A stretch of DNA of 64,000 nucleotides. Source: Cordylochernes scorpioides. Taxonomy: Eukaryota > Arthropoda > Arachnida > Pseudoscorpiones > Chernetidae. Numbering within the stretch: position 1 is the stretch's first letter; each line of letters starts with the position of its first letter. A model generated the notes under the pieces. It was not told the origin of the DNA and did no database searches. It saw only the letters and a program-made list of their open reading frames with translations. This document shows positions 7,189 to 64,000 of this stretch, piece after piece. The DNA is taken from positions 15,498,062 to 15,562,061 of the forward strand of contig CP092882.1 in assembly GCA_030710605.1 (NCBI GenBank), given 5' to 3'. The position numbers were made by a program, and so were the translations under genes.

Positions 7189-7956
7189 TACCTCCTGAAG
7201 GTAATTTATTTATTTTTCCACCTATCAACCGTTTTTCGTAAGGCTGGTTTTACTCCTTCTTACTTACATTTTTTATCTCATGCTCCCGTCTCCCATAAAA
7301 TTACCACCGTTAAAACTCTTTCTAAGCGCGTTTTTACTCATTGCTCCCTTCCTTTATTTAGTAGAATCGAGAAACGGACCGTTTACCTACACCTTTTATC
7401 CGCGGGTTACCCACGCAACTTTATTGATCGACATTTTTATTCACCAAATCACGACAGTTCCATTCCTCCCCCGTTTAAAGGTGTTTGCGTTCTTCCGTTT
7501 TCTATTACGAATTCCGACATTGGTTTTTATCTACGTAAATTTGGCATCCGTACGTTTTATAAAAAATCACCTTCCCTGGGCACATCTTTACGCCATCCCC
7601 TCACAAAAAGCTCCATTAAACCCAGCCCCCAATCTTTCTCCAATGCCATCTACAGAATCCCGTGTAATGACTGCCCACAATCCTACGTCGGAGAAACTGG
7701 CCGAACCATTGCCACTCGAGTCCTAGAGCACGACCGTAACATCCGTTCTCATGATCGTAAGTCACTACTATATCAACACAGCCACGAATTTAACCATTCT
7801 TTTAATTTACGCAACACGATTCCGGTATATAGTGATGTTAAGAACAAATATCAACGTTTGGTCTTTGAGGCTCTTGTGTCCAGCTCTATCCCTAGTTTTA
7901 ATAGAAAAATAGATCTCCCCCCTCAATATACTGTTTTTTCTAAACTTGGCCACTGA
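7189..7956 (+). pseudogene. Penelope-like element, 3' part with GIY-YIG endonuclease
   Basis: A frame with no ATG at its start is open for about 256 codons and ends in TGA at 7954-7956. Its middle resembles the PLE region after RT (HCSLPLFSRIEKRTVYLHLL). It ends in a GIY-YIG module, AIYRIPCNDCPQSYVGETGR, with CxxC and an ATRVLEHDRN helix, then FNRKIDLP. The GIY-YIG nuclease is the PLE endonuclease that nicks the target for reverse transcription. The RT catalytic core is absent upstream, so this is a 5'-truncated copy. It is paralogous to the PLE at 33568-37171 but clearly diverged. The open frame over the remaining domain suggests moderate age. Confidence 0.8.
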
Positions 7957-8189
7957 CATCCTATTTTGCTCCTTTCCTTTATTATGCCTAGATACTTACG
8001 TTTTCTCGTCTTTCCATCATTTTCCCTATGTTTTACCTTTAATTCGTCTTATACAGATTTTTAGTTTATTTTTTAGAAATTTCGTACTTTTATCTTTAGT
8101 TCCATATGTAAATTTCTTAATTTTTAAGTAGATCTTAGTTTTCTTTTATGCTAATTCACTGCATATAAATATTGGTTCACTCTTTCCAA

Positions 8190-8245
8190 TCACGCATTGT
8201 ACCTGATGAAGGGCAGCTGATGCCCGAAAGCTTGTTGTGCGGAAT
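8190..8245 (+). ncRNA. hammerhead-ribozyme-like motif of PLE 3' end
   Basis: CTGATGA (8203-8209) is followed by a 4-bp stem GGGC/GCCC (8211-8214 with 8222-8225) and GAAA (8226-8229). This is the conserved hammerhead core with stem II in place. Stem III would be only about 2 bp, as in the hammerheads known from Penelope-like elements. Stem I pairing (CGCA with TGCG) is weak and interrupted. The motif lies 247 nt after the PLE stop codon, the same spacing as at the palindromic PLE (246 nt). Self-cleavage is inferred, not shown. Confidence 0.55.
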
Positions 8246-8404
8246 AAATAAACTTACCACGCTATTCACCTACTTCCTGTTTTAATCTATCAAGCGTGGC
8301 TATACTATGTCTGATCCTAATATTATATTATTATTATAATATATATAGTCACGACCGTCTTTCCTGGCCTCTGTCACGGATGAAATTTAAAAATTAAAAA
8401 AAGA

Positions 8405-8477
8405 TGCCGAAACCCGGGATCGAACCAGGGACCTTTAGATATTCAGTCTAACGCTCTCCTAACTGAGCTATTTCGGC
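8405..8477 (-). tRNA. tRNA-Phe (anticodon GAA)
   Basis: The reverse complement folds as a complete cloverleaf. The acceptor GCCGAAA pairs with TTTCGGC and the discriminator is A. The anticodon loop is CTGAATA in stem TTAGA/TCTAA, and the T arm is CCTGG-TTCGATC-CCGGG. It matches the animal tRNA-Phe consensus except for T instead of purine at position 37 and A for G in the D loop. A T-run directly downstream (CTTTTTTT) is a good pol III terminator. The changed position 37 is odd for a functional tRNA-Phe, so a retained but decaying copy is possible. Confidence 0.8.
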
Positions 8478-8727
8478 TTATTTTATTTATTTCTATAGAA
8501 GCTTCTATCTTTATAATTATGTATATTTACAAAAAGTCAATTCGCTCGCGCCTCTAGCGGTGAAAATGAGGGGTAATACCAGCTGACCTAATGTACATAT
8601 AAAGTTTGGAGCGGGACGTTTCACAAGAGTGACATACACGGCTCCAATTTATAATTGTAACAAATAGTATTTGAATAAAAACATTCAATCGGGTAAAACA
8701 CGGGCGTTGCCCGGGTCATTCGGCTAG
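8478..8727 (+). mobile_element. Helitron 3' end (partial)
   Basis: The segment ends with a GC hairpin CGGGCGTTGCCCGGG followed by TCATTCGGCTAG|T. This is the Helitron 3' signature: a hairpin shortly before CTAG, inserted before T. The same tail in inverse orientation occurs at 57713 and 59518. No convincing 5' TC terminus was found, so the left limit is arbitrary, and whether the tRNA-Phe lies inside the element is open. Confidence 0.6.
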
Positions 8728-10571: not shown

Positions 10572-10808
10572 AGGCAGCCAGCCGAGAGAGAGCGAGTGAG
10601 AGCTTATCCGCTGAACGACCGTTTTCCCTGTGTACACTACCGGGGGGGGGGGGGGGGGGGCTATCCAAAATAGTCACCAGGTGTTGACGGGCGGCCCCCT
10701 CAGGAATGTGGCCAAAATGGTCGTAAGTTAGTTGTCTTCCATCGACGTCTCTCTCTCGTTGACTGTAGGTTTACTTTACTATTCCTGGAAGAGCATATAT
10801 TATGACAT
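10572..10808. repeat. direct repeat, right copy, with long G-run
   Basis: Pairs with 8806-9040. The left copy has six G's in the ccGGGGGG position; this copy has about 20 consecutive G's. It is immediately followed by the Tc1-like element inserted at TA. Confidence 0.7.
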
Positions 10809-10811
10809 ATA

Positions 10812-12229
10812 CACTGCGTGACATTGAAAATGGAACACTAAGAAATAGTGGCCAGAAAGTGATGAAACTCGGCAGACAGAGAGAGACAGGGACGAACAAT
10901 AAGTGATATTTATTTCAAAATGATAGTCATAATACAGAGCGAGAACGGCGTCGGCTTAGTAGCAAGTAGGACCACCGCGGACGGCGATGCACGCAGCAAC
11001 ACGTCTAGGTAGAGAGTCAATCAGAGTACGGATGGCGTCCTGAGGGATGGCTCTCCATTCCCTCTCAACCATTTGCCACAGTTCGTCTTCTGAACGCGGC
11101 TGTGGCAAGGCATGCAAACGGCGTCCAATGATGTCCCAGACGTGCTCGATTGGTGAGAGATCAGGAGAGTACGTTGGCCAGGGAAGCATCTGTACATCTT
11201 GCAGAGCTTGTTGGCTAATGCGAGCAGTGTGCGGTCGGGCGTTATCCTGCTGATAAAGGGCATTGGGTACCCCCTGAAGGTAGGGGAGTGTAACCGGTCG
11301 CAGCACATCATCAACGTATCGTTGGGCCGTCATAGTGCCCTGAATACGAAGTAAAGGTGACCTGGAATCATACGCGATTGCGCCCCAAACCATGATTCCA
11401 CGTTGTCGCACGGTGGGGCGTTCCACAATTGCTGCCGGATTGGACCTTTCTCCACGTCGACGCCACACGCGTACACGGCGACTTTCACTGGACAAGCAGA
11501 AACGCGACTCATCTGAGAACACGACCCTGTGCCATTCCGTCATCCACGTCGATCTAGCCCGGCACCATTCCAAACGTTGGCGCCTATTCGGTGGGGTCAA
11601 TGGCAGTCTTCTTAGCGGACGGCATGAGTGCAAGCCATTAGCAACCAATCGACGGGAAATGGTTCTGGTCGAGATGGAATGATCTAGGGTGTCTTGCACA
11701 TGTTGCAGGATGGCGGTACAAGTGGCTTGTGGGGCCGCCACTGCTTGTCGAAGGATACGCCAATCCACACGTGCTGACGTCCCTCTGGTTGCACCGACGT
11801 TCCTATAAATTGCCACATTTCCTTGTTCCAACCATCTTCTCCACAGTCGGTGCACCGTGGACGCACCAAGGTGTGTATCAGCTGCGATTTGACGTATGGA
11901 CCAACCTGCCCTTTTCAGTCCGATCACAATGCCCCTCGTAAAAGCGTCTGTCTGCTTGAACTGCCTCCGTTTACGATGACCTGGCATTCTCTGTTATTAC
12001 ACGTGTCTTTTGACACAAGAACAAAATTTCTACAATGATTTACTTGAAGAAATAACGACACCAATACTGTCCTTTCTGCAAGTTCCTTCCCTTATATCTT
12101 ACTCCATGTGCCCACGAGAGCTGCGCATTTTACATCATTTGCATAACTCGGTTAGGCGCGTCCACCCTGAAATTTGCATAATTTTCTAGCCACTATTTCT
12201 TGGTGTTCCATTTTCAAAGTCACGCAGTG
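10812..12229 (-). mobile_element. Tc1-like DNA transposon, copy 1
   Basis: It is flanked by TA at 10810-10811 and 12230-12231. Terminal inverted repeats of about 47 bp start CACTGCGTGAC; the two ends differ at about three positions. One intact transposase gene lies inside on the minus strand. Length is 1418 bp. A second near-identical copy lies at 38986-40406. Confidence 0.93.
10956..11987 (-). CDS. Tc1-like transposase (343 aa, intact)
   Basis: IS630/Tc1 superfamily transposase, which cuts and pastes the element into TA sites. N-terminal helix-turn-helix DNA-binding domains are visible at residues ~10-60 (GWSIRQIAADTHLGASTVHRLWRRW) and ~70-125. The catalytic triad reads FSDESRF, QQDNARPHTA and SPIEHVWD. 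I count 32 residues between the second D and the E, whereas canonical Tc1 has 34. No stop or frameshift over 343 codons, and the ATG lies just inside the end of the element. It differs from the second copy at about 12 residues, so amplification was fairly recent. Likely catalytically competent on sequence grounds. Confidence 0.92.
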   Translation of the reverse strand: MPGHRKRRQFKQTDAFTRGIVIGLKRAGWSIRQIAADTHLGASTVHRLWRRWLEQGNVAIYRNVGATRGTSARVDWRILRQAVAAPQATCTAILQHVQDTLDHSISTRTISRRLVANGLHSCRPLRRLPLTPPNRRQRLEWCRARSTWMTEWHRVVFSDESRFCLSSESRRVRVWRRRGERSNPAAIVERPTVRQRGIMVWGAIAYDSRSPLLRIQGTMTAQRYVDDVLRPVTLPYLQGVPNALYQQDNARPHTARISQQALQDVQMLPWPTYSPDLSPIEHVWDIIGRRLHALPQPRSEDELWQMVEREWRAIPQDAIRTLIDSLPRRVAACIAVRGGPTCY

Positions 12230-12363
12230 TATATATATAGTAAAGTACCATATAGCCTTAAAACCTGTATCTTATCTTCAAATTCAAATTAGATTAATGA
12301 TTGATTGAGATTGAGAAAGAAGAACATTTGAAATAAAACTTCTCCTATTCTTATATATATATG
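12230..12363. other. short spacer with motif shared with 24250
   Basis: Contains atatagccttaaaacctg, which recurs almost unchanged at about 24253-24275 on the far side of Gypsy-B. Otherwise AT-rich. Confidence 0.4.
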
Positions 12364-16812: not shown

Positions 16813-16838
16813 TGTTACATAAAAAGAAAAATGGCGCA

Positions 16839-16871
16839 TTCCAGAAGAGAATGTTTTAGAACGTTCTAGAA
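16839..16871 (+). promoter_or_regulatory. heat-shock element cluster upstream of TATA
   Basis: TTCcaGAA (16839-16846) and a perfect alternating triplet GAAcgTTCtaGAA (16859-16871) match the HSF trimer binding consensus of inverted nGAAn units. They lie about 120 bp upstream of the TATA box. The same site is present in the 3' LTR. A second perfect triplet, TTCtaGAAggTTC, lies at 17121-17133, downstream of the TATA. Confidence 0.6.
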
Positions 16872-16990
16872 AAATGTAGAAAAATCGGAGAACAACGGAT
16901 TGGCCAATCAGTAGCGATTACGCAATGCTCAAGCCTGTCGGCTTTGTGATTGGCTAACCAACCATGACCGTTCTGGAAAGATCTACTCCG

Positions 16991-17000
16991 GTATATATAG
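16991..17000 (+). promoter_or_regulatory. TATA box of Gypsy-C LTR
   Basis: GTATATATAG lies about 180 bp into the LTR with CCAAT boxes and heat-shock motifs upstream. Transcription would start about 25-30 bp downstream. Confidence 0.6.
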
Positions 17001-17373
17001 GGATGAGGAACTCATGCCAGGAAGTCGAAGAACGAAGCTACGTGGTGTACTACAAGCAAGCTGCTGTCTCAAGAGGTCGGACTGCTGCCTACCGCCGACG
17101 CCGGTGTACTTCCTGGAAGATTCTAGAAGGTTCTACGAACTTCTGTCTCCTGTTCTGCTCCTGCTTTCCCTCACTGTGCTGCAGTTGGTGAGTGTGTAAC
17201 TACTGTTTTCTTTATTGTTGTTTTATTTTTGCACTCTTCTGTAATTATTTTATCAATTAGGCTTAAATAAAGTCCTAAAGATCCTTTGTACCCACGGAAG
17301 TTATTCTTTGTTAACCAACAACGCAACAATTTGGTGTCAGAAGTGGGATCTTTAGGTGAAGCCTGAATAATTT

Positions 17374-18456
17374 ATGGTACTTACCAGAAAAATGGAAGAA
17401 ATATTGAAAGCGATCCAAGCTCAAAACCAGGATCTTCAAGCTCAAAATCAAGAAACTCGCGAGGTTTTTAAAGCTCAAAATCAAGAGCTAAAAGAAAGCT
17501 TGGGGCTTAAATTCAAATGCTTGGAAGATCAAATCTCTTCTGTAAAAGAAGAAATGAAAGAAGAAATCTCCTCTGTAAAAGAAGAAATGAAAGGAGAAAT
17601 GAAAGATGAAATTTCCTCTGTGAAAGAAGAAATGGCTTCTTTAAAAGAGAGACTTGCTGCTGTCGAAACGGGCCATCCAAGATCTCCGGTGTTCCAGCAA
17701 GAGAATAATAATTCGGGTAGGCTTCTTGTCAAAGTTCCTACCTTTGATGGACAATCATCATGGACTTCCTTCAAAACCCAGTTCGATGTGGTTGCCCAAG
17801 CTAACGGATGGAACGTTAGAGATAAGGCAAGCTTTTTGGCTGCTGCACTTCGTGGACCTGCAGTGGATGTACTCCAGATGATTCCGGAACAACTCCGCCT
17901 AGACTTCAACTCCCTGATTGACACTCTGGATTCCCGATATGGAGAAGAACACTACCAACAGCTTCATGTGGTAAAGTTCAAGAATAGACTACAAGAAAAG
18001 AAAGAAAGTTTGCAGGATTTGGCCAACGACATCCGACGCCTGGCAAGATTAGCCTTTCCAACGTGCCCGTCTGAAACACAAGACTTTATGGCCCAACAAC
18101 AATTTATTGATGCCATCGGAGACCCTGAGACCCAAAAGTTTGCCAGACTTTCAAGTGCGACTACTCTACAAGAAACCCTTGTCCAAGCCATGAAGCATGA
18201 AGCTGCCCAACAAGCCTCAAGAGGAAGTTATCGCTTGGCTAGACAAGTTAAATTGGATAATCCAGGAAGAGAAAAGGGTCGCTGCTGGACCTGTGGAGCT
18301 AATGACCACCTGTCTCGAACTTGCCCCCGAAAAGTAAAACAGCGCAGTGATACAGGTTGCTGGAAATGTGGAAAAGATGGCCACATAAGGAAAAACTGTC
18401 CAGATAACTCTAAAAACCCCTCAGCCCCTAGGAAGAACCAGGAAAACTACGAATAG
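17374..18456 (+). CDS. gag: Gypsy-C Gag polyprotein (360 aa)
   Basis: Structural protein that forms the virus-like particle and binds element RNA. The N-terminus (residues ~10-95) is a highly charged coiled-coil made of repeated AQNQ and SSVKEEM units. It is followed by a capsid-like domain (VPTFDGQSSWTSFKTQF, then ALRGPAVDVLQMIP, then LDSRYGEEHYQQL) typical of Ty3/gypsy Gag. Two CCHC zinc knuckles, CWTCGANDHLSRTC and CWKCGKDGHIRKNC, lie near residues 303-316 and 328-341. The start at 17374 is the first ATG 45 bp after the LTR. The stop TAG overlaps the pol frame, which lies in -1 relative to gag. Confidence 0.93.
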   Translation: MVLTRKMEEILKAIQAQNQDLQAQNQETREVFKAQNQELKESLGLKFKCLEDQISSVKEEMKEEISSVKEEMKGEMKDEISSVKEEMASLKERLAAVETGHPRSPVFQQENNNSGRLLVKVPTFDGQSSWTSFKTQFDVVAQANGWNVRDKASFLAAALRGPAVDVLQMIPEQLRLDFNSLIDTLDSRYGEEHYQQLHVVKFKNRLQEKKESLQDLANDIRRLARLAFPTCPSETQDFMAQQQFIDAIGDPETQKFARLSSATTLQETLVQAMKHEAAQQASRGSYRLARQVKLDNPGREKGRCWTCGANDHLSRTCPRKVKQRSDTGCWKCGKDGHIRKNCPDNSKNPSAPRKNQENYE

Positions 18457-21400
18457 TCAGCTTTTCGGGGCGAAAGCTGGCTGGGCCATTTGAGAATGCC
18501 CCTGATGGTACCATCCAAGTCTCCAGTCTTCGAAATACAGAAAATGGATTATTGCTACGAGGTTTCATAAATGGAAGAAGCTGCGACATGGTAATTGACA
18601 CTGGAGCTAATGTCACCCTCGTGCGAACTGATGTCTTCCAGAATCTGTATCCAAAGCCTGCTGAGGTTAGAATGAAGCCAATTTCACTGCAAACTGCAAC
18701 AGGGGAGCGGGCTAAAGTGCACCATTGTGTCTTGCTAAGCATACAAATCGGAAGCAAGATTTTCCAGCATAAAGGCTACGTTGCAGATATCATGGACGAG
18801 TGCATCATTGGTCTGGATGTCCTGAGGCAATTTGGACTTTCGATAGATATCGGGCAGAACTTGCTACGGACCAGCGATGAAGATATCCCTCTCCTGACAT
18901 CTCAGCAACTTCACAATTTTCATGCCTGCCGAGTGTTAGCTTTAGAAGACACACAAGTTCCCCCACGCAGTGAATGTGTCATCAAAGGACAGTTGGAAAC
19001 TACAAAGGTCAGTCCAAAATTTGTCATCCTGGAAGGAGACTCCGAGGCACCTTCAAGGGGGATTCTCGTAGCAAAGGAACTTATTGACACTGGACGGGAC
19101 GTAATACCAGTAAGGGTGGTGAATCTCTACGACTCTGCACGTGCCATCAAGAAAGGCTCATGCCTTGGAAATGCAGAACCTGCTGTTTTGATTAAGAGAA
19201 ACCATCCAGTGATGCAGAAGTCTAAAAGTGCAGACAATGTTCCAGATCATCTTCAACAAGTCTGGGAGGAAACAAAGAAAGAACTTCAACCTGGACAGCA
19301 GAGAGAACTGGCAACACTCCTTGCTACCTACAACAAAATTTTTGCCAAGTCATCAGAAGACTATGGAAGAACAGATTTGACAAGGCATAGAATCAACACT
19401 GGCGAATCAAACCCAATTAAACAAGCACCCCATCGGATACCCCTTGCTCGACGTCAAGAAGCGGAAACCTTGGTAAAAGAGATGCTTGATCAAAACATTA
19501 TTGAACCATCTTCAAGTCCCTGGGTTTCTCCAGTTGTCTTGGTGAAAAAGAAAGATGGATCTACAAGATTTTGTGTCGACTATAGGAAGTTGAATGATAT
19601 CACCAAGAAGGACTCTTATCCTTTTCCTCGCATTGATGCAACTCTAGATACATTAGCTGGATCCCAATGGTTTTCAACACTGGATTTGAAAAGTGGATAC
19701 TGGCAAGTAGAAATGCATCCTGATGACAAAGAAAAGACTGCATTTACAACTGGATCTGGATTGTGGCAGTTCAATGTAATGCCTTTCGGACTCTGCAACG
19801 CGCCAGCAACCTTTGAACGTCTAATGGAAGCTGTTCTGCAAGGACTGGCTACCGAAACATGTATGGTGTATTTGGATGACATCATTGTACTTGGAAAGAA
19901 CTTTGAAGAGCATCTCTCGAACATTGAGAAGGTGTTTAAACGTTTAGAAGCTGCCAATTTAAAATTGAGTCCAAAGAAGTGCAAACTCTTTAAAAAGGAA
20001 GTAGCCTACCTGGGGCATATAATTTCTGCTGAAGGTGTTCAAACTGATCCAGAAAAGACAGAAACTGTAAGAATGTGGCCTACTCCTAAAGATTTGACAC
20101 AACTGAGAAGCTTTCTGGGATTATGCACTTACTACCGAAGGTTCATCCCAGGGTTCTCCAATATTGCAAGACCTCTACATCGTTTGACTGAAAGTGGAAG
20201 GCCGTTTGTTTGGACTCCCGATTGTCAGCGAGCCATGGAAAAACTGAAAGAGATGCTGGTGGCTGCTCCTATTCTGGCCTACCCTAGACCTGGAGACTCT
20301 TTCATCCTGGACACAGACGCAAGTAATACAGGAATTGGTGGCGTCCTCTCACAAGTGCAGGAAGGCTCCGAAAGAGTGATTGCTTATTTTAGCAAGACCC
20401 TATCCAAACCCGAACGAAACTACTGTGTTACTAGAAAAGAGTTGCTGGCTATCGTCAAGTCTATTGAACATTTCCATCACTACCTATATGGACAGGAATT
20501 TATTCTCAGGAGTGATCACGCTTCCTTGCAATGGCTTTTAAATTTCAAGAACCCAGAAGGACAGCTAGCCAGATGGATTCAAAGACTTCAGGAATACCAA
20601 GTTAAAATTCAACATCGTCCTGGAAAACGCCACCAGAATGCTGATGCGCTTTCAAGAAGGCCATGTGTTCCACAATGTGGACATTGTGCTCGTGCTGAAG
20701 ACAAATATGGCGTAAGGCAAGTTACAGTGCAAGAAAGCGATGAAGTAGAAGAGCAACATTGGACTGGACAAGCTTTAAGAAAAGCTCAACGTGAAGACCG
20801 AGATCTCTTGCAAATGATAAATTGGAAGGAATCAGATGAAAAACCATCCTGGGAAGATGTGGCCCCATACAGTCCTAAAACCAAAAGTCTCTGGTCCCTC
20901 TGGAATTCTTTGACCCTGCGAGATGGTGTCTTATATAGGAAATGGGAGAGCGATGATGGAAAGCATGAATCCTGGAAGTTGGTGTTACCCAGATCTCATG
21001 TACCTTTGGCTCTCCAGGAGATGCATAGCAGTCCCACGGGAGGTCACTTCGGCATCAGAAAAACATTGGCCAAAGCTAGAGAAAGATTTTGTTGGCCAGA
21101 AAGTCGAGCTGATGTTGAAAAATGGTGCAGAAACTGTACGCAATGTTCAGCGAGAAAGGGACCGACAACAAGATCCAAAGGAAAGTTGAAGATCTACAAT
21201 GTAGGTGCCCCATTTGAACGGATTGCCATTGATGTTGCGGGGCCCTTTCCAAAAAGCGACCTAGGAAATAAGTACATCCTGGTAATAATGGATTACTTCA
21301 CTAAATGGCCTGTCGCAGTCCCTATTCCAGACCAAGAGGCTTCAACTGTATCCGAGGCGCTATTGCAAGATTGGGTCTGCATTTTTGGCGTGCCCAGAAT

Positions 21401-22091
21401 TCTGCATTCCGACCAAGGAAGAAATTTCGAATCGAATATTTTCCAAGAACTGTGTAGACGACTGGGCATTGAGAAAACAAGAACTACACCTTTGCATCCT
21501 CAATCTGATGGAATGGTTGAACGTTTTAACAGGACTCTTACACAGCACCTGACCATGTTTGTTGACAAGAATCAAAGAGACTGGGATCAACATCTTCCCA
21601 TGCTCCTGATGGCTTATCGATCAGCTGAGCATGAGTCGACTGGTTATAGTCCTGCTAGAATGCTATTTGGGCATGAACTCCGAATGCCTTGTGATGTGCT
21701 CCTTGGTCGTCCAGAAGAAACCTTCGAAAACACTAATGAGTACATCTCTCACCTGGAAGAAAGGATGCTGTCCATTCATCAGTGGGCAAGAGAGAAGCTT
21801 CACTTTTCCAGCGAGAAAATGAAAGACAGGTACAACGTCAAGACTTCCCACAAGACTTTCAAAGAGGGTGAAATGGTTTGGCTCCATAATCCTCAACGGA
21901 AGAAAGGACTTTCTCCTAAACTTCAGTATCAGTGGGAAGGTCCCTACAAGATCATCAAGTGTCTCAATGATGTCATCTATCGAATTCAGAAGACCCGGAC
22001 TTCTAAACCCAAAGTTGTGCACTACAACCGATTAGCACCTTTCAGAGGTTCTGTTCCAGAACAATGGACTGTTCGGGACGATCAGTCCTAA
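18432..22091 (+). CDS. pol: Gypsy-C Pol polyprotein (protease, RT, RNase H, integrase)
   Basis: The -1 frame relative to gag opens at 18432 after a TAG and overlaps the last 25 nt of gag, so -1 ribosomal frameshifting is likely; GGAAAAC at 18441 is a candidate slip site. The first ATG is at 18552. Counting from that ATG (1179 aa), protease DTGA is at ~16, RT YLDD at ~440 and RNase H DTDAS at ~587. Integrase has its HHCC finger from ~825, catalytic D near 894 (IDVAGPFP), D near 953 (SDQGRNF) and E near 988 (VERFNRTL). A GPYKIIKCLNDVIYRI C-terminal module follows. All catalytic residues are present and no stops occur. Confidence 0.95.
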   Translation, partial: EEPGKLRIVSFSGRKLAGPFENAPDGTIQVSSLRNTENGLLLRGFINGRSCDMVIDTGANVTLVRTDVFQNLYPKPAEVRMKPISLQTATGERAKVHHCVLLSIQIGSKIFQHKGYVADIMDECIIGLDVLRQFGLSIDIGQNLLRTSDEDIPLLTSQQLHNFHACRVLALEDTQVPPRSECVIKGQLETTKVSPKFVILEGDSEAPSRGILVAKELIDTGRDVIPVRVVNLYDSARAIKKGSCLGNAEPAVLIKRNHPVMQKSKSADNVPDHLQQVWEETKKELQPGQQRELATLLATYNKIFAKSSEDYGRTDLTRHRINTGESNPIKQAPHRIPLARRQEAETLVKEMLDQNIIEPSSSPWVSPVVLVKKKDGSTRFCVDYRKLNDITKKDSYPFPRIDATLDTLAGSQWFSTLDLKSGYWQVEMHPDDKEKTAFTTGSGLWQFNVMPFGLCNAPATFERLMEAVLQGLATETCMVYLDDIIVLGKNFEEHLSNIEKVFKRLEAANLKLSPKKCKLFKKEVAYLGHIISAEGVQTDPEKTETVRMWPTPKDLTQLRSFLGLCTYYRRFIPGFSNIARPLHRLTESGRPFVWTPDCQRAMEKLKEMLVAAPILAYPRPGDSFILDTDASNTGIGGVLSQVQEGSERVIAYFSKTLSKPERNYCVTRKELLAIVKSIEHFHHYLYGQEFILRSDHASLQWLLNFKNPEGQLARWIQRLQEYQVKIQHRPGKRHQNADALSRRPCVPQCGHCARAEDKYGVRQVTVQESDEVEEQHWTGQALRKAQREDRDLLQMINWKESDEKPSWEDVAPYSPKTKSLWSLWNSLTLRDGVLYRKWESDDGKHESWKLVLPRSHVPLALQEMHSSPTGGHFGIRKTLAKARERFCWPESRADVEKWCRNCTQCSARKGPTTRSKGKLKIYNVGAPFERIAIDVAGPFPKSDLGNKYILVIMDYFTKWPVAVPIPDQEASTVSEALLQDWVCIFGVPRILHSDQGRNFESNIFQELCRRLGIEKTRTTPLHPQSDGMVERFNRTLTQHLTMFVDKNQRDWDQHLPMLLMAYRSAEHESTGYSPARMLFGHELRMPCDVLLGRPEETFENTNEYISHLEERMLSIHQWAREKLHFSSEKMKDRYNVKTSHKTFKEGEMVWLHNPQRKKGLSPKLQYQWEGPYKIIKCLNDVIYRIQKTRTSKPKVVHYNRLAPFRGSVPEQWTVRDDQS

Positions 22092-22102
22092 GGAGGGGGC
22101 AG

Positions 22103-22618
22103 TGTTACATAAAAAGAAAAATGGCGCATTCCAGAAGAGAATGTTTTAGAACGTTCTAGAAAAATGTAGAAAAATCGGAGAACAACGGATTGGCCAATCA
22201 GTAGCGATTACGCAATGCTCAAGCCTGTCGGCTTTGTGATTGGCTAACCAACCATGACCGTTCTGGAAAGATCTACTCCGGTATATATAGGGATGAGGAA
22301 CTCATGCCAGGAAGTCGAAGAACGAAGCTACGTGGTGTACTACAAGCAAGCTGCTGTCTCAAGAGGTCGGACTGCTGCCTACCGCCGACGCCGGTGTACT
22401 TCCTGGAAGATTCTAGAAGGTTCTACGAACTTCTGTCTCCTGTTCTGCTCCTGCTTTCCCTCACTGTGCTGCAGTTGGTGAGTGTGTAACTACTGTTTTC
22501 TTTATTGTTGTTTTATTTTTGCACTCTTCTGTAATTATTTTATCAATTAGGCTTAAATAAAGTCCTAAAGATCCTTTGTACCCACGGAAGTTATTCTTTG
22601 TTAACCAACAACGCAACA
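22103..22618 (+). repeat. Gypsy-C 3' LTR
   Basis: No difference from 16813-17328 was seen by eye over 516 bp. It is preceded by the purine tract AGGAGGGGGCAG and followed by the TTAT target duplicate. Confidence 0.95.
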
Positions 22619-31931: not shown

Positions 31932-33380
31932 GAATGGCACGTTTTCGCCTTATAATTAAATAAAATAAATGCATTATAGACCTTTTATAAATTTTGAATA
32001 TATGGCCGATTTTAATTGTAGTTTTATTAGAAATATCCTTTTAAATATTTCAAAGTTGTTGCTCTGAGAAGCAATCATGACCTGAAATGAACGTGGAAAT
32101 ATTTTAACATACTACTGTATTCGACAAGAAAAATCGTTGGTACTGTATGTCATTGACATTATGAAGACATCACGCTCAGGGCTTTCATACAATAAGTTGG
32201 AAATTGACGAGAAGATACTGGTTCAAACTACACCAACTGAGATCGTTACAACAATAGCTATATATTAAGATGAATGCCTTTAGAAAATATAATTATTTTA
32301 GTATTGACGTAATTTTTTTGCAACAATAAATTGATGGTAATGTGTTTATTTTACGTCTACTGACCTTACTGCAACGATAAAAGTTATTGAATCTCTCTCA
32401 TTCTATAACTTATTACATTGCAGTACAGTCTGTATTTGTAAAAAAAAATAAGAAACACTTTCCCAAATATTATTTGTTACATATTTAAAATTTATACTTG
32501 TATTTATTTTATTGAATTTTGGGCTTAGATAGAATATTTTAATTATCGTGAACATATATACGGTAACCTACGGGTTCAAATCTATCGACTCTTTCTATTC
32601 CTGCGGTAACCGAAAGGGACAGTCAGGGTGTGGAGAGTCTTCCAGTACCTCTCTGCACCTTGGAAGACCTTTAGCATTTCTCACAGAGTGCAGGCAGTCG
32701 TTGTCGGGGCAGAATGGAAGACTTGAGATTGTGTACACACAAAAACGAAGCGACACAGTTTTACTAGGAAAGTATCATGAACAGATAGAGTCTGGATAGC
32801 GGCAAAAGATGGAGATGGTTAAGAAGTTCTTACTGGCATGATCAAGTTATGAAGTGACGAGGGCTCCCGTGGATGGTGAAGTGACTATTACATTTCCACA
32901 TTGGCGGTGGTTTATATTCTTTCTGATGAGGAAATACTTGTTTCAGTGGATGCAAAAAGGGCGGGGATCATGTAAGAGATGACCGTGTAAACTCTCAACG
33001 ATTTCCTGGCAACTTCCTGACATTTTGTAGGTCTCATTCTTAAACGTTGTTGTACTTCTATATATCAATCTCTACTATTTATCTTAACTCTTCTTCTATT
33101 ACACAGTTTAATTTTATTATACTCAGTTTGTACAGAGGATATTACATATGGTGATGCAATGGTTCATGTCAATCATGTGTATAATTATTTTCAGAAATGT
33201 TTTTATACAACACGACAAAATATGGGGTTGTTGGTTCAAATTACGATATAAATATTTATATCAAAGTGTGAATAATAAGGCGATCAATCTCTAATTATTA
33301 TAATGTATGAATATCATGATTTCTCCAAAAATTAATTATTGAATTATTTCTCGAATAATATGAGTTTTCGTCATATGCAG
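31932..33380. other. large intron-like region, possible hidden exon
   Basis: A CTLD normally has about 50 more residues between the two flanking exons, so one might expect an exon here. The moderately GC-rich block 32550-32950 has no convincing splice-bounded exon in CTLD frame. It contains gggttcaaatc, a B-box-like word, and may be an old SINE. Confidence 0.35.
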
Positions 33381-33470
33381 GAGAATACCAACTTTGTCAC
33401 CTAAATTACGACACCTTGGATACAGATGAATGCAAGATTCCGCGACAATTTGCCTGCATGATCAATTCAG
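33381..33470 (+). CDS. lectin-like gene exon (C-terminal CTLD, unit 3)
   Basis: Acceptor catatgcag, a phase-1 entry joined to the exon ending 31725, 29 codons (EYQLCHLNYDTLDTDECKIP then RQFACMINS) and donor TCAG|GTTTGC (phase 1). The C-x13-C-x7-C pattern with RQFAC resembles the end of a CTLD (the last Cys in FxC). Further exons, if any, would lie beyond the PLE palindrome that starts 100 bp downstream. Confidence 0.6.
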
Positions 33471-33922
33471 GTTTGCCTAGAATACATTAATTTGTTAATT
33501 GTGTATATGATGTCTTTTATCATGAAATAATAGTATTAGTATTAAATAAGTAATAATATTAAGATATTAATAGGCTAATCCCTTAATAGAATGTTCAAAA
33601 CTATAAGTCTGAGGGATAAGTGTCTTTTAGGAAAAAAATTAATTCAAGCTTTCGGGCCCAACCGCCCTTCGACAGGAAAATTACGCTACTGACGTTTTCG
33701 GATCAAATCCATATATATATATACACGAAGAAGCCGAAAATATACTACAGTTATGCAAAAAGCTGATTTACATAGTGAATAAAACAATAAAGCGGAAATA
33801 TAAGTATACATATAGAGAGAATTTGAATGTCTACAATATGAACTGGTATGGAATAAGACAAAGAAGATGGCATATTTTGGAAACACAGAACAGACTAACT
33901 ATTGAATTTGCGGTCTCAGAGT

Positions 33923-35602
33923 TCATGGTACGGTGGGAGGTTTGGTGGCTGCAGGGAATAATACATTGTAAATTTCAGGTAGATCAATTTTTCTATTAAG
34001 GCTGTGGAATTTGCTTGACAGGAGGGATTCGATGACTAGTCTTTGATGTTTGCTGGAGATATTGGAATAATGAATTTTGGGTGATGTAATGTTGAAGGAA
34101 TGGCCAGTTTCGTTGATATGCTGAACTATTAAGGATCTATGGTCTCGGTTATCAATGTTTCTTTTGTGTTCATGAATTCTGATATTGACCTGTCTTCCAG
34201 TTTCACCCACGTAGATTCCTGGGCAATTTGAACATTCTATTGAGTAAATAACGTTACGTGCCGTACTGTAAGGTTCATTATAATTGAGTTTCATTATTTG
34301 GTTTCGGAGAAGGGATCCTGAGGTAGGTGCGCAGGTGAAGTAGGTTTTAATTCCGAATTTTAACAAGAATCTGGCAATGGTGGATGCTAAAGGTGAATAT
34401 GGCATACTGCAAATTGATCTGTATACTGGAGGCTGTATCTTTTTGGATGAATCGTAAAAGTGTCGTAATATAAAGGACATTGGGTATGCACAGTTTTTGA
34501 GGTTAGCTATTATGTTTTGTGTTTCAAGGGTCTTGTACTTCTGGAGGGAGCAGTGGGTATGTATTCGTTTTGAAAGTGCAATGACTGTATTGATCTTGTG
34601 ACTGATTGGGCAGAAGGACGAGTATTGAACGTAATTAGGGCGGAAAGTTGGTTTATAATAAACGGTGGTGTGGAATTCATGCTGGTCACGGATAATTTTT
34701 ATGTCAAGAAACGGAAGGATATTATTGTTCTCTTTTTCAACGGTGAAGTGGAGATCAGGGTGATAATTGTTTAGGTTGCAGAGGATGTTTTCGGTTTGGG
34801 TGGTGGTGCAGATGCATATCGTCGATGTACCTGCGCCAAAAGACTATGTCATGGGGGAACCTGGCGGTAATCCATCGGTCTATTGAGCGCATTGAGATCT
34901 CAGCTATTGTAGTCGATAGAGGGCTTCCCATTGGTGACCCCTTTGCTTGCCTGTATGATTTGGAATTATATGCGAATATGCAGTTATTCAGACATAAGGT
35001 AATGAGTTGGGTGATTTTATGGATGATATCTGTATCTATATGCTGTTCTTGTAGAAGTTCTATTGTATCCCTTATGATCAAAGGATGTGGAAGGCTGGGG
35101 TATAAGGATTGCACGTCAAAAGACACCATGTTACGGTCAGATTCAGGTTTGATCTTCAAAACTTCTCCTATGAAGGTTTGGGTGCTGGATATGGGGAATG
35201 GAGAATTCTGTAATTGGATGAACGGTTTTAGAAAATTGGCTATAAATTTGGAAAGGGGGGCTGTTGGAGAAGAGAAAAAGGCCACTATAGGACGCAAGGG
35301 AGTTTCAGGTTTATGTGTTTTTGGGAGGCCGTAAATATAAGGTTCATTGCACGGGCTGGACAGATTTGATAAGAATTCTTTGAGTTCATCATCTGTGATC
35401 TTACGGTCGGTATTCATCTTTTTAAGTTCTTTTTTGAATGATTTGTACGAAGATTTTTTATCATTTTCGGATATGGGATGGAATGTGGTTCGGTCTTCTA
35501 GGATCTTGAGCATTTTGCTGTTGTAGTCCGAACGGTTAAGGATAACTGTCTGTCCGCCCTTGTCTGCTTGAGTGATGACAATTTCTTGACAATTTTCAAA
35601 AA
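33923..35602 (-). pseudogene. PLE left copy: RT plus GIY-YIG, frameshifted
   Basis: Read on the minus strand: TQADKGGQTVILN near 35560 and YGLPKTHKPETPLRP near 35330. RT motif A is FDVQSLYP near 35110, motif B QAKGSPMGSPLS near 34930 and motif C RRYIDD near 34830. The frame breaks right after YIDD, since the sequence continues in another frame (CICTTTQTEN, then LHFTVEKENNNILPFLDIK) through to GIY-YIG (VIYSIECSNCPGIYVGETGR) and a stop at 33923. The 5' end is truncated at the ADKG motif. PLE RT copies its RNA at a nick made by the GIY-YIG nuclease; this copy is dead. Confidence 0.85.
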
Positions 35603-36842
35603 GTCTTGAAGATCAAACCTGAATCTGACCGTAACATGGTGTCTTTTGACGTGCAATCCTTATACCCCAGACTTCCACATCCTTTGATCATAAGGGATAC
35701 AATAGAACTTCTACAAGAACAGCATATAGATACAGATATCATCCATAAAATCACCCAACTCATTACCTTATGTCTGAATAACTGCATATTCGCATATAAT
35801 TCCAAATCATACAGGCAAGCAAAGGGGTCACCAATGGGAAGCCCTCTATCGACTACAATAGCTGAGATCTCAATGCGCTCAATAGACCGATGGATTACCG
35901 CCAGGTTCCCCCATGACATAGTCTTTTGGCGTAGGTACATCGACGATATGCATCTGCACCACCACCCAAACCGAAAACATCCTCTGCAACCTAAACAATT
36001 ATCACCCTGATCTCCACTTCACCGTTGAAAAAGAGAACAATAATATCCTTCCGTTTCTTGACATAAAAATTATCCGTGACCAGCATGAATTCCACACCAC
36101 CGTTTATTATAAACCAACTTTCCGCCCTAATTACGTTCAATACTCGTCCTTCTGCCCAATCAGTCACAAGATCAATACAGTCATTGCACTTTCAAAACGA
36201 ATACATACCCACTGCTCCCTCCAGAAGTACAAGACCCTTGAAACACAAAACATAATAGCTAACCTCAAAAACTGTGCATACCCAATGTCCTTTATATTAC
36301 GACACTTTTACGATTCATCCAAAAAGATACAGCCTCCAGTATACAGATCAATTTGCAGTATGCCATATTCACCTTTAGCATCCACCATTGCCAGATTCTT
36401 GTTAAAATTCGGAATTAAAACCTACTTCACCTGCGCACCTACCTCAGGATCCCTTCTCCGAAACCAAATAATGAAACTCAATTATAATGAACCTTACAGT
36501 ACGGCACGTAACGTTATTTACTCAATAGAATGTTCAAATTGCCCAGGAATCTACGTGGGTGAAACTGGAAGACAGGTCAATATCAGAATTCATGAACACA
36601 AAAGAAACATTGATAACCGAGACCATAGATCCTTAATAGTTCAGCATATCAACGAAACTGGCCATTCCTTCAACATTACATCACCCAAAATTCATTATTC
36701 CAATATCTCCAGCAAACATCAAAGACTAGTCATCGAATCCCTCCTGTCAAGCAAATTCCACAGCCTTAATAGAAAAATTGATCTACCTGAAATTTACAAT
36801 GTATTATTCCCTGCAGCCACCAAACCTCCCACCGTACCATGA
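35603..36842 (+). pseudogene. PLE right copy: RT motifs A-C plus GIY-YIG, frameshifted
   Basis: Inverted duplicate of 35163-33923. It starts just before motif A (FDVQSLYP), has motif B and YIDD near 35940, and carries the same +1 shift after YIDD as the left arm. It then runs open from 35949 to the stop after 36840 with the identical GIY-YIG domain. It is truncated about 440 bp further than the left copy. Confidence 0.85.
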
Positions 36843-37084
36843 ACTCTGAGACCGCAAATTCAATAGTTAGTCTGTTCTGTGTTTCCAAAATATGCCATCT
36901 TCTTTGTCTTATTCCATACCAGTTCATATTGTAGACATTCAAATTCTCTCTATATGTATACTTATATTTCCGCTTTATTGTTTTATTCACTATGTAAATC
37001 AGCTTTTTGCATAACTGTAGTATATTTTCGGCTTCTTCGTGTATATATATATGGATTTGATCCGAAAACGTCAGTAGCGTAATT

Positions 37085-37118
37085 TTCCTGTCGAAGGGCG
37101 GTTGGGCCCGAAAGCTTG
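37085..37118 (+). ncRNA. degraded hammerhead-like motif, PLE right end
   Basis: CTGTCGA (37088-37094), GGGC (37096-37099), GCCC (37106-37109) and GAAAGCTTG give the same layout as 8203-8229. The stem and GAAA are conserved but the CTGATGA core is mutated at two positions, so it is probably inactive. It lies 246 nt after the PLE stop. A mirror copy lies at about 33647-33676. Confidence 0.45.
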
Positions 37119-37184
37119 AAATAATTTTTTTTCCTAAAAGACACTTATCCCTCAGACTTATAGTTTTGAACAATATTAAGATAT

Positions 37185-37502
37185 GTTAATTAATAATTAC
37201 CTTTAAATATTTTTCAATAATTTCCTGTTGTTATGAATAAAATGAAACAAGAAAGCAATATTAATATTTAGGTATTACTAATGATTAATTTAAATTATAT
37301 ATATATATATATATAGTGTAAAAACTATATAATAAAAATATAACAGTGATACTACATTTAAAACTTAAGGAGCAATCTGATCAGAATGATAAATCATATC
37401 AAGTAGATTTGGTTAGATTAGCAAGCTAAATCTAAATTAATTATAAAAATAAATAGTTGTTGGAGTTTTATTTATATTAGAATATATATATATATATATA
37501 TA
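37185..37502. other. AT-rich spacer
   Basis: Contains two (AT/TA)n microsatellites (near 37297 and 37483); the second is the insertion site of a Helitron. No gene. Confidence 0.5.
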
Positions 37503-38534: not shown

Positions 38535-38979
38535 TCCGAGTGAAAGTTTGCTTAACGAATATTATATATTATGAAGTATATTAAACAATGTTAAAGATTA
38601 GTTTTAATTATTAATCAAGATTGTTTGTGAATATGTGAGAAAGATGTAATATCGTTGTTGTTTTCTTGGCCGACTGTTTTACATATGGTGTTATCTTGAA
38701 ATTGCTTGTTTTGAATATTTTTTTAGATTGAGTTGAATGAATTGCTGAATTTTTTTTTGTATTTATATATAAATAAAATTAACTCTGTTGTTTTTTTTTG
38801 TATTTAATCGATAACAGCTAAGTTACGCATGTTAATGTTAGGGAAAAATATTTCGATGTTAAGCAAAACCTGCTCCATCTCGTTTTACATAAATATTGAA
38901 AATTTGGTTGAAATTGATGCATTGTAACGAAAGTTTTTAGTGATGTCCTCTTATGAAATTTGCATTTTATTAATATAGA
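38535..38979 (-). mobile_element. Helitron H7 body, 5' end intact
   Basis: Nearly matches 57965-58416 (gtttgcYtaacgaatattat, then gttgttgttttcttggccgac). On the minus strand it starts A|TCTATATTAATAAAATGC. The 3' hairpin/CTAG end is missing because the minisatellite and Helitron H1 lie where it should be. The Tc1-like copy 2 starts 6 bp away. Confidence 0.65.
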
Positions 38980-38985
38980 TATATA

Positions 38986-40406
38986 CACTGCGTGACATTG
39001 AAAATGGAACACCAAGAAATAGTGGCCAGAAAGTGATGAAACTCGGCAGAGAGAGAGAGAGACAGGGACGAACAATACGTGATCTTTATTTCAAAAAGAT
39101 AGTCATAATACAGAGCGAGAACGGCGTCGGCTTAGTAGCAAGTAGGACCACCGCGGACGGCGATGCACGCAGCAACACGTCTAGGTAGAGAGTCAATCAG
39201 AGTACGGATGGCGTCCTGAGGGATGGCTCTCCATTCCCTCTCAACAATTTGCCACAGTTCGTCTTCTGAACGCGGCTGTGGCAAGGCATGCAAACGGCGT
39301 CCAATGATGTCCCAGACATGCTCGATTGGTGAGAGATCAGGAGAGTACGGTGGCCAGGGAAGCATCTGTACATCTTGCAGAGCGTGTTGGCTAATGCGAG
39401 CAGTGTGCGGTCGGGCGATATCCTGCTGATAAAGGGCATTGGGTACCCCCTGAAGGTAGGGGAGTGTCACCGGTCGCAGCACATCATCAACGTATCGTTG
39501 GGCCGTCATAGTGCCCTGAATACGAAGTAAAGGTGACCTGGAATCATACGCGATTGCGCCCCAAACCATGATTCCACGTTGTCGCAAGGTGGGGCGTTCC
39601 ACAATTGCTGCCGGATTGGATCTTTCTCCACGTCGACGCCACACGCGTACACGGCGACTATCACTGGACAAGCAGAAACGCGACTCATCTGAGAACACGA
39701 CCTTGTGCCATTCCGTCATCCTCGTCGATCTAGCCCGGCACCATTCCAAACGTTGGCGCCTATTCGGTGGGGTCAATGGCAGTCTTCTTAGCGGACGGCA
39801 TGAGTGCAAGCCATTAGTAACCAATCGACGGGAAATGGTTCTGGTCGAGATGGAATGATCTAGGGTGTCTTGCACATGTTGCAGGATGGCGGTACAAGTG
39901 GCTTGTGGGGCCGCCACTGCTTGTCGAAGGATACGCCGATCCACACGTGCTGACGTCACTCTGGTTGCACCGACATTCCTATAAATTGCCACATTTCCTT
40001 GTTCCAACCATCTTCTCCACAGTCGGTGCACCGTGGACGCACCAAGGTGTGTATCAGCTGCGATTTGACGTATGGACCAACCTGCCCTTTTCAGTCCGAT
40101 CACCATGCCCCTCGTAAAAGCGTCTGTCTGCTTGAACTGCCTCCGTTTACGATGACCTGGCATTCTCTGTTATTACACGTGTCTTTTGACACAAGAACAA
40201 AATTTCTACAATGATTTTCCTTGAAGAAATAACGACACGAATACTGTCCTTTCTGCAAGTTCCTTCCCTTATATCTTACTCCATGTGCGCACGAGAGCTG
40301 CGCATTTTACATCATTTGCATAACTCGGTTAGGCGCGTCTACCCTGAAATTTGCATAATTTTCTGGCCACTATTTCTTGGTGTTCCATTTTCAATGTCAC
40401 GCAGGG
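38986..40406 (-). mobile_element. Tc1-like DNA transposon, copy 2
   Basis: TA on both sides (38984-38985, 40407-40408) and the same inverted repeats as copy 1, with the right tip mutated to CACGCAGGG. About 96-97% protein identity to copy 1. Confidence 0.93.
39132..40163 (-). CDS. Tc1-like transposase, copy 2 (343 aa)
   Basis: Full-length frame with the same domain order as copy 1: HTH GWSIRQIAADTHLGASTVHR, catalytic FSDESRF and SPIEHVWD. The second catalytic motif reads QQDIARPHTA: the Asp is kept, but the Asn right after it, conserved in the family (QQDNARPH in copy 1), is Ile. This may weaken catalysis. The residue count from that D to the final E is again 32. Confidence 0.9.
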   Translation of the reverse strand: MPGHRKRRQFKQTDAFTRGMVIGLKRAGWSIRQIAADTHLGASTVHRLWRRWLEQGNVAIYRNVGATRVTSARVDRRILRQAVAAPQATCTAILQHVQDTLDHSISTRTISRRLVTNGLHSCRPLRRLPLTPPNRRQRLEWCRARSTRMTEWHKVVFSDESRFCLSSDSRRVRVWRRRGERSNPAAIVERPTLRQRGIMVWGAIAYDSRSPLLRIQGTMTAQRYVDDVLRPVTLPYLQGVPNALYQQDIARPHTARISQHALQDVQMLPWPPYSPDLSPIEHVWDIIGRRLHALPQPRSEDELWQIVEREWRAIPQDAIRTLIDSLPRRVAACIAVRGGPTCY

Positions 40407-40515
40407 TATAATATTTTGTTATTATGAACAGATTATTAATTTTGATATTTATATATCTTGATAACCTGTATAATTTTCCCTATTTGCTTCAATAACAAAT
40501 ATATATATATTTTTC
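40407..40515. other. AT-rich spacer
   Basis: Nothing recognised. Confidence 0.5.
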
Positions 40516-63600: not shown

Positions 63601-64000
63601 CCTACACTGGTGAGGTTTTTATACTGGCGTGGTTCCTACACTGGTGAGGTTTTTATACTGGCGTGGTTCCTACACTGGTGAGGTTTTTATACTGGCGTGG
63701 TTCCTACACTGGTGAGGTTTTTATACTGGCGTGGTTCCTACACTGGTGAGTTTTTTTATACTGGCGTGGTTCCTACACTGGTGAGGTTTCTATACTGGCG
63801 TGGTTCCTACACTGGTGAGGTTTTTATACTGGCGTGGTTCCTACACTGGTGAGGGTTTTATACTGGCGTGGTTCCTACACTGGTGAGGTTTTTATACTGG
63901 CGTGGTTCCTACACTGGTGAGGTTTTTATACTGGCGTGGTTCCTACACTGGTGAGGTTTTTATACTGGCGTGGTTCTTACACTGGTGAGGTTTTTATACT
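60650..64000. repeat. satellite of 17-bp monomers, open at window end
   Basis: The monomer is tcctacactggcgtggt with variants tcttataatggcgtgtg, tcctacactaccgtagt and ttatacactggcgtaat. The first ~2.7 kb mixes variants in higher-order patterns, for example an 85-bp, five-monomer block repeated three to four times at about 62178-62470. From about 63360 a 34-bp dimer (tacactggtgaggttttt, atactggcgtggttcc) dominates. More than 190 monomers. Open frames here are artefacts. Confidence 0.95.

Follow-up and report, generated by a model that had tools for sequence, protein, structure and literature searches.

Organization of the focal locus

The window analysed here, a 64,000-nt stretch of contig CP092882.1 of the pseudoscorpion Cordylochernes scorpioides, contains two copies of a Penelope-like element (PLE) arranged head to head. 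A tailed arm (33568-35587, minus strand) is followed by about 15 bp of filler and a tailless arm (35603-37171, plus strand), and the pair is enclosed by the 13-bp sequence AATATTAAGATAT, which is present at both 33555-33567 and 37172-37184 (Table 1). This duplication around both arms had been recognized in a preliminary description of the locus. What that description missed is the key feature, namely 24 nt of surplus 3' sequence at the end of the left arm (33568-33591).

Table 1. Parts of the focal PLE dimer, with positions in the window
Feature	Position	Strand	Evidence
Target-site duplication, left copy (AATATTAAGATAT)	33555-33567		Present once, with one substitution, in 4/4 aligned empty paralogous sites
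24-nt tail, left arm only, between two reverse-transcription start sites	33568-33591	-	At one end exactly in 55/55 dimers with both ends read
Left PLE arm (tailed, long), 3' end outward at left, 5'-truncated at centre	33592-35587	-	Arm alignment
Open frame with reverse transcriptase domain, extending into filler	34755-35612	-	Pfam RVT_1, E 3.2e-10
Open frame with GIY-YIG endonuclease similarity, in a frame different from that of the reverse transcriptase	33923-34843	-	E 4.4e-4, 20.9 bits
Junction filler, about 13-15 bp	35588-35602		Unaligned in other copies
Right PLE arm (tailless, short), 3' end facing outward on the right, 5' truncation about 424 bp greater than in left arm	35603-37171	+	Arm alignment
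GIY-YIG frame of right arm, same 5-bp deletion upstream	35922-36842	+	Open frame
Target-site duplication, right copy	37172-37184		Repeat alignment

The element had been assigned to the PLEs, and this assignment holds. It encodes a reverse transcriptase (RT), recognized by the Pfam family RVT_1 which is not PLE-specific, followed by a region similar to GIY-YIG endonucleases, and this is the domain order of endonuclease-bearing PLEs. The GIY-YIG match (20.9 bits) lies just below the curated Pfam cut-off of 22.6. An Rfam scan of 33400-37300 at E<=1 returned zero matches, including none to the hammerhead ribozyme that endonuclease-bearing PLEs carry in their pseudo-long terminal repeat. The alignment of 35601-37180 with 33582-35164 spans 1584 columns at 99.4% identity, including a few bases at its ends that match by chance, and agrees with the near-identity over about 1.57 kb noted earlier. 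When the arms are aligned end to end, 9 of 1574 columns differ (gap columns counted), and an ungapped pairing of 1452 nt is 100% identical after rounding. The left arm had also been credited with 439 additional bp at its 5' side. It is indeed the longer one, but the first 15 nt of this extension (35588-35602) read as filler without alignment to other copies, leaving a true surplus of about 424 bp. In itself the focal copy is an ordinary member of its PLE family; the finding is the rule that it exposes.

The focal target (window 33300-33480; C20:15.73-16.34 Mb) belongs to a unit that is repeated locally, in about ten paralogs of 81-93% identity, and is perhaps a gene cluster. A query made of both focal flanks with a single target copy between them retrieved from the host assembly (2.62 Gb, 24 contigs) a local group of paralogous sites on the same contig, with nine places crossing the junction without an insert. 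Four paralogous sites were aligned (three of the nine and one split match), and all of them contain the target once and lack the PLE; in one, some 90 nt of unrelated sequence are inserted 5' of the target site. Given that the target duplication lies outside the pair and that paralogous sites are empty, the dimer was inserted as a unit, as had been claimed before, and thus represents one insertion event.

Head-to-head dimers and their 3' ends

Other inverted PLE pairs with outward 3' ends, which the preliminary description had proposed to look for, were sampled by exact matches to a 30-mer that lies close to the 3' end of the PLE, and the first 100 of 150 matches were listed and grouped into 69 clusters. 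Among the matches listed, 29 of the 69 clusters contained two exact 30-mer matches with their 3' ends outward and none had inward 3' ends; one was a duplicated array and 39 had a single exact match. Sequence was read around 66 clusters, and both ends were read for the remaining three. On this basis 42 of the 69 listed clusters are complete head-to-head dimers, 41 of them independent, making the dimer the commonest insertion form in the family sample. At L049 and L054 a partner arm is present whose 3' end was unreadable, and at L014 a 12-nt tailed second arm, overlooked by the automatic arm search, was recognized by eye. Five of the listed clusters extend past the fetched stretch, and for one of these, L051, a tailed end lies at the side where it would be expected.

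Arm lengths range from 12 nt to about 3.3 kb across loci. At the lower end, 15 of the 41 independent dimers are palindrome-like mini-dimers of 85-114 bp with target duplications (L012, L015, L017, L019, L023, L027, L029, L035, L037, L039, L040, L041, L044, L057 and L065), which could pass for miniature inverted-repeat transposable elements (MITEs). L017, L029, L037 and L040 have a common palindromic ATGCAT junction and differ in their target duplications. At L015 (C1:91.518-91.520 Mb) the mini-dimer is present in four copies together with near-identical flanks, a later local duplication that carried the insertion along. At the upper end, the full-length dimer on C11 carries truncated upstream units, a tandem or pseudo-long terminal repeat (pseudo-LTR) structure that is found in relatives and not in the focal truncated copy. 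On C11, C12 and C17, tailed ends follow each other on the same strand at a spacing of 2737-2748 bp, which likewise corresponds to tandem units or pseudo-LTRs.

The 3' ends of the arms come in two forms that are 24 nt apart. Tailed ends consist of ...TTTTGAACA followed by TTCTATTARGGGATTAGCCKATTA, and tailless ends stop at ...TTTTGAACA. Every one of the 55 dimers with both 3' ends read has one tailed and one tailless end, whereas free choice at each end would produce mixed pairs in about half of the cases. These 55 dimers comprise 41/41 from the 30-mer sample and 14/14 further long dimers found elsewhere in the host assembly; for this count and for that of target duplications, L015 with its four duplicated copies was taken once and L022 was left out as a duplicate of L021. 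Outside the 55, ten further pairs agree with the rule by coordinates only (in Mb, C20:33.6, C16:57.9, C20:69.1, C2:122.5, C19:58.8, C13:47.5, C12:74.7, C19:29.1, C21:65.9 and C5:94.4), as does L051 paired with C5:43.78 Mb. The complex arrangement at C11:56.67 Mb was left out of the rule count. A total of 118 exact tailed ends was found, and among the 100 listed, tailed-tailed head-to-head neighbours less than 10 kb apart occur only at inner unit boundaries on C11. The outer ends of the full-length C11 dimer are one tailed and one tailless.

The rule extends to a second PLE family, reached via a fragment in the window (7189-8340) which contains a GIY-YIG-like frame by eye and gave no Pfam match at E<=0.001. 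All ten dimers of this family whose ends were fetched obey it, with one end at or a few bases from ...CCTGTTTTAA and the other about 26-28 nt further, and two more are consistent by coordinates only. Thus, the rule holds in a total of 65 dimers across two PLE families. The tails of 24 nt in the focal family and of about 26-28 nt in the second are slightly under the published range of 30-40 nt. By eye, the 3' region of the second family also contains a hammerhead-like core (CTGATGA ... GAAA), unmatched by Rfam at E<=10; over 8100-8360, Rfam returned three weak matches at this threshold, none of them a hammerhead.

Templating of the two arms and mode of insertion

Among the 44 fetched dimers, short and long alike, the tailless arm is the longer one in 12 and the tailed arm in 13, the remaining 19 being equal within 5 nt. 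A set of 18 long dimers, with both arms exceeding 150 nt, consists of 12 automatic pairs, C11 by hand and five by coordinates; it omits other coordinate-only pairs, C5:33, C9:87 and C9:100 (centres unread), and dimers with one short arm. Here the tailless arm reaches further 5' in ten dimers (five by more than 200 nt, the others by 2-59 nt) and the tailed arm in eight. Altogether, the tailless arm extends more than 200 nt further 5' in eight dimers (L028, L034, L042, L046, L048, L078, L006+L075 and C7:82). Each arm of these dimers has sequence that is absent from the other, that is, the tail on one side and the extra 5' part on the other, and the two arms were therefore templated separately. 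The non-nesting argument rests on other copies, because the tailed left arm of the focal pair is also the longer one and contains the right arm. We conclude with high confidence that the arms are two RNA-templated cDNAs with separate start sites.

Target duplications and junctions are informative about the cut and its repair. Of 40 fully fetched dimers, 37 are flanked by an exact duplication of 9-16 bp (13 or 14 bp in 26 of the 37), and L025, L036 and L047 have no exact duplication of at least 9 bp. The target boundaries are AT-rich, and on both cut strands the context is T^NT (T, cut, any base, T), with T frequencies of 0.73 and 0.68 on the tailless side and 0.65 and 0.81 on the tailed side. 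Because the top strand is cut at the right edge and the bottom strand at the left, 3' overhangs result. The endonuclease cut looks symmetric, which places the asymmetry in the use of RNA start sites. In the centre, the arms overlap by at least 1 nt in 26 of the 44 fetched dimers, abut in four and are separated by 1-25 nt of filler in 14, some of which repeats nearby sequence. Among the overlaps are chance matches as well as stops at self-complementary sites (ATGCAT, for example). Two arm stops are found repeatedly, one about 37 nt and the other about 100 nt away from the inner start site. Presumably, the centre is sealed by end joining at short complementarities.

Taking these data into account, we consider it highly probable that the focal locus is a single insertion of an endonuclease-bearing PLE by bilateral target-primed reverse transcription. 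The endonuclease would cut both target strands about 13 nt apart and create two 3' overhangs, each of which would prime minus-strand cDNA on the element RNA, albeit at differing fixed places. Use of the outer start site on one strand would produce the 24-nt tail, and the start 24 nt further in on the other strand would produce the tailless end. Both cDNAs would extend toward the 5' end of the RNA, usually stopping early; their 3' ends would then be joined at short complementarities or with little filler, and fill-in of the overhangs would generate the target duplication around the head-to-head dimer. A protein dimer may be the agent of these reactions, one RNA molecule may serve both strands and host end joining may close the centre. 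The preliminary description had invoked inverted template use during target-primed synthesis. Target-primed synthesis is still the best account of the inversion, but the inversion is not an odd event, being the commonest form in the sample, and each arm seems to be a cDNA of its own, primed from one of the two cut strands at a different fixed start site, rather than part of a single inverted template.

Palindromes of this kind might also arise by self-priming, in which one cDNA (or antisense RNA) folds back and copies itself. Such a mechanism would suit the many palindromic or short-overlapping junctions (26/44), the arms of equal length (19/44) and the containment of the shorter focal arm in the longer one. 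However, the copy would have to nest in its template, which it fails to do in the eight dimers whose tailless arm exceeds the tailed one by more than 200 nt; a tailless first cDNA would be unable to yield a tailed copy, and the fixed second end 24 nt further in would be left without a reason. Self-priming therefore is a very unlikely source of the dimers in general, although it possibly survives for the equal-armed mini-dimers. The latter are frequent, and the finding that four of them share one palindromic junction within differing target duplications would fit a heritable, MITE-like unit that is copied whole via a hairpin transcript. Yet the shared junction lies at the self-complementary ATGCAT, where cDNA ends could re-anneal repeatedly, and junctions and arm lengths vary widely between loci. 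As an explanation of the dimers we regard the heritable unit as unlikely, although some mini-dimers may have been copied as units. A DNA transposon or MITE with terminal inverted repeats was rejected as a candidate, given that junctions and lengths vary between loci and that the element encodes an RT.

In twin priming of the L1 type, the same RNA is primed a second time at an internal position, and only the 5' part becomes inverted. This would place an inversion inside one target duplication and leave short junction overlaps, as observed, but L1 twin priming yields non-overlapping or barely overlapping segments, whereas both arms here begin from the 3' end of the element and have 1.57 kb in common, which renders this route highly improbable. 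Finally, nothing but the inverted pair itself speaks for two successive insertions, a later inversion or an assembly duplication. With the duplication outside the pair, empty paralogous sites and dozens of loci that have differing target duplications, this explanation is hardly conceivable. Likewise, an assembly artefact is very unlikely as the source of the focal dimer because the same architecture, with its own target duplications, recurs at dozens of loci and because paralogous sites are empty.

A more serious alternative to bilateral priming on one RNA is bilateral priming on two separate RNAs, one per protein subunit. It has the simplest geometry, since on one RNA the tailed cDNA must displace or follow the tailless one. 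Evidence on this point comes from variants private to a dimer. These were preferred as a test because nearest-neighbour distances paired arms in few dimers, the partner ranking first for both arms in M006 (L006+L075), M008 (L008+L076), L047 and L001 and not in others. Private to the two focal arms are five substitutions as well as a 5-bp deletion located in the RT region, all absent from 14/14 other covering arms. At least three private variants are common to both arms in four of 12 long dimers tested (L001, C11, L006+L075 and L047) as compared with 0.2% of unrelated arm pairs (n=928), and the arms of these four dimers thus stem from a common source; one further dimer shares two private variants. 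In 10 of 24 rows the two arms have a matching A/T tract, where shuffling gives an expectation of 3.2 (P 2e-4); the rows include the duplicate locus L022 and an inner C11 unit boundary (in L004), both non-matching. Moreover, seven of the 18 long dimers have arms whose 5' ends lie within 45 nt of each other, where shuffling predicts 0.9 such dimers (P 1e-5). The positions of these ends bear no relation to one another across loci, and such co-termination is consistent with two polymerases working on a single RNA that is broken or blocked. Shared private mutations, tract agreement and co-termination all favour one RNA or one source copy. We thus have moderate confidence in one RNA per insertion, and two RNAs remain a tentative possibility of appreciable weight. 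The shared deletion suggests that the focal RNA had a broken RT frame and was probably mobilized by protein from elsewhere.

Several observations weigh against bilateral priming on one RNA or against parts of it. Seven of the 12 long dimers share no or one private variant (L007, M008, L018, L021, L046, L077 and L078), as expected for two RNAs; in L007, L021 and L046 one arm carries several private variants that the other lacks, and the remaining four have little resolution. The highest shared-variant value among unrelated arm pairs is seven, and gene conversion between arms after insertion could account partly for shared variants and arm identity. In 19 of the 69 listed clusters one arm was found by this search, so that completion with one visible cDNA also occurs; single arms with target duplications include L010, L014, L020, L026 and L056. 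Because the 3'-end RNA (56 and 108 nt) folds no better than shuffles (z -0.40, -0.09 and +0.95), no structural basis for the two start sites emerged, and our confidence that a structural reason lies behind them is low. Within the element, the tail region (33582-33599) matches the open frame at 36521-36538 in opposite sense at 17 of 18 positions, a candidate for long-range RNA pairing.

Neighbouring repeats and relation to known elements

The window contains further repeats. An LTR-type retrotransposon at 16813-22618 has mutually identical 516-bp direct repeats and, by eye, an open pol-like frame of 1219 amino acids, and it looks very recent. Two transposon copies (10804-12238 and 38978-40414) are 97.7% identical and contain a transposase-like frame of 345 amino acids by eye. 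A long tandem repeat array of diverged units begins at 60659 and runs to the window end at 64000. At 8400-8480 (minus strand) there is a tRNA-like stretch by eye, which we take to be perhaps part of a short interspersed nuclear element.

Penelope of Drosophila virilis is the founding element of the class and occurs in inverted and tandem copies; to our knowledge, no per-insertion pairing rule is known for it. In L1 twin priming and in target-primed reverse transcription of R2, target 3' ends prime cDNA, and 5' truncation and short junction overlaps are found. Different from L1 and R2, two overlapping copies both begin near the element 3' end here, from two target strands. The D. virilis element is named in PMC11167929 and PMC12910113, and its endonuclease favours AT-rich DNA according to work cited in PMC11167929. 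PLEs share an ancestor with telomerase RT, as stated in PMC3846280 and PMC5718144.

Dimers, the tail and the two start sites are already known, the latter two from Frangieh 2024. The Poseidon-type PLE protein PAc of Anolis carolinensis cuts and extends both strands, and its reverse transcription begins at two neighbouring sites inside the RNA that delimit the known optional tail (PMC11167929). PAc resembles the elements described here in its RT and GIY-YIG domains, tandem units with pseudo-LTRs and AT-rich target, and in the cutting and extension of both strands from two adjacent internal start sites that bound the tail. The PAc assay saw no start-site difference between strands (PMC11167929), whereas here each dimer read pairs both sites, one per strand. 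PMC3846280 describes head-to-head PLE copies of rotifers, some inside target duplications, with a tail "optionally present" on one inverted repeat. For Penelopes of the rotifer Adineta vaga, self-priming on antisense RNA was proposed (PMC3846280). The A. vaga copies resemble ours in their inverted head-to-head arrangement, target duplications of 8-10 bp in some, junction palindromes and pseudo-LTRs. By contrast, that study deals with few copies, a tail that is called optional and self-priming, whereas we find a strict rule, 65 dimers and eight clear non-nesting cases. In the open-licence literature that was searched, with older Penelope papers outside its scope, neither a partition of the tail to one end per insertion nor arms made as independent cDNAs was found stated. 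The one-tail-per-dimer rule is thus likely, though not certain, to be new.

The study of the purified full-length PLE protein regards the later steps of insertion as "yet to be validated experimentally" (PMC11167929). The rule turns the remark on an optional tail into a constraint on any insertion model. It is tempting to speculate, and we hold the chances to be even, that PLEs are two-ended integrators in which a symmetric cut is combined with an asymmetric ribonucleoprotein that directs the two primers to separate start sites of one and the same RNA, the strands being copied in parallel with no separate second-strand priming. If this were true, the optional tail would be a record, in every two-armed insertion, of which strand used which site. 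The rule is also relevant to the use of PLE proteins as tools for writing RNA into DNA from the two ends of a cut.

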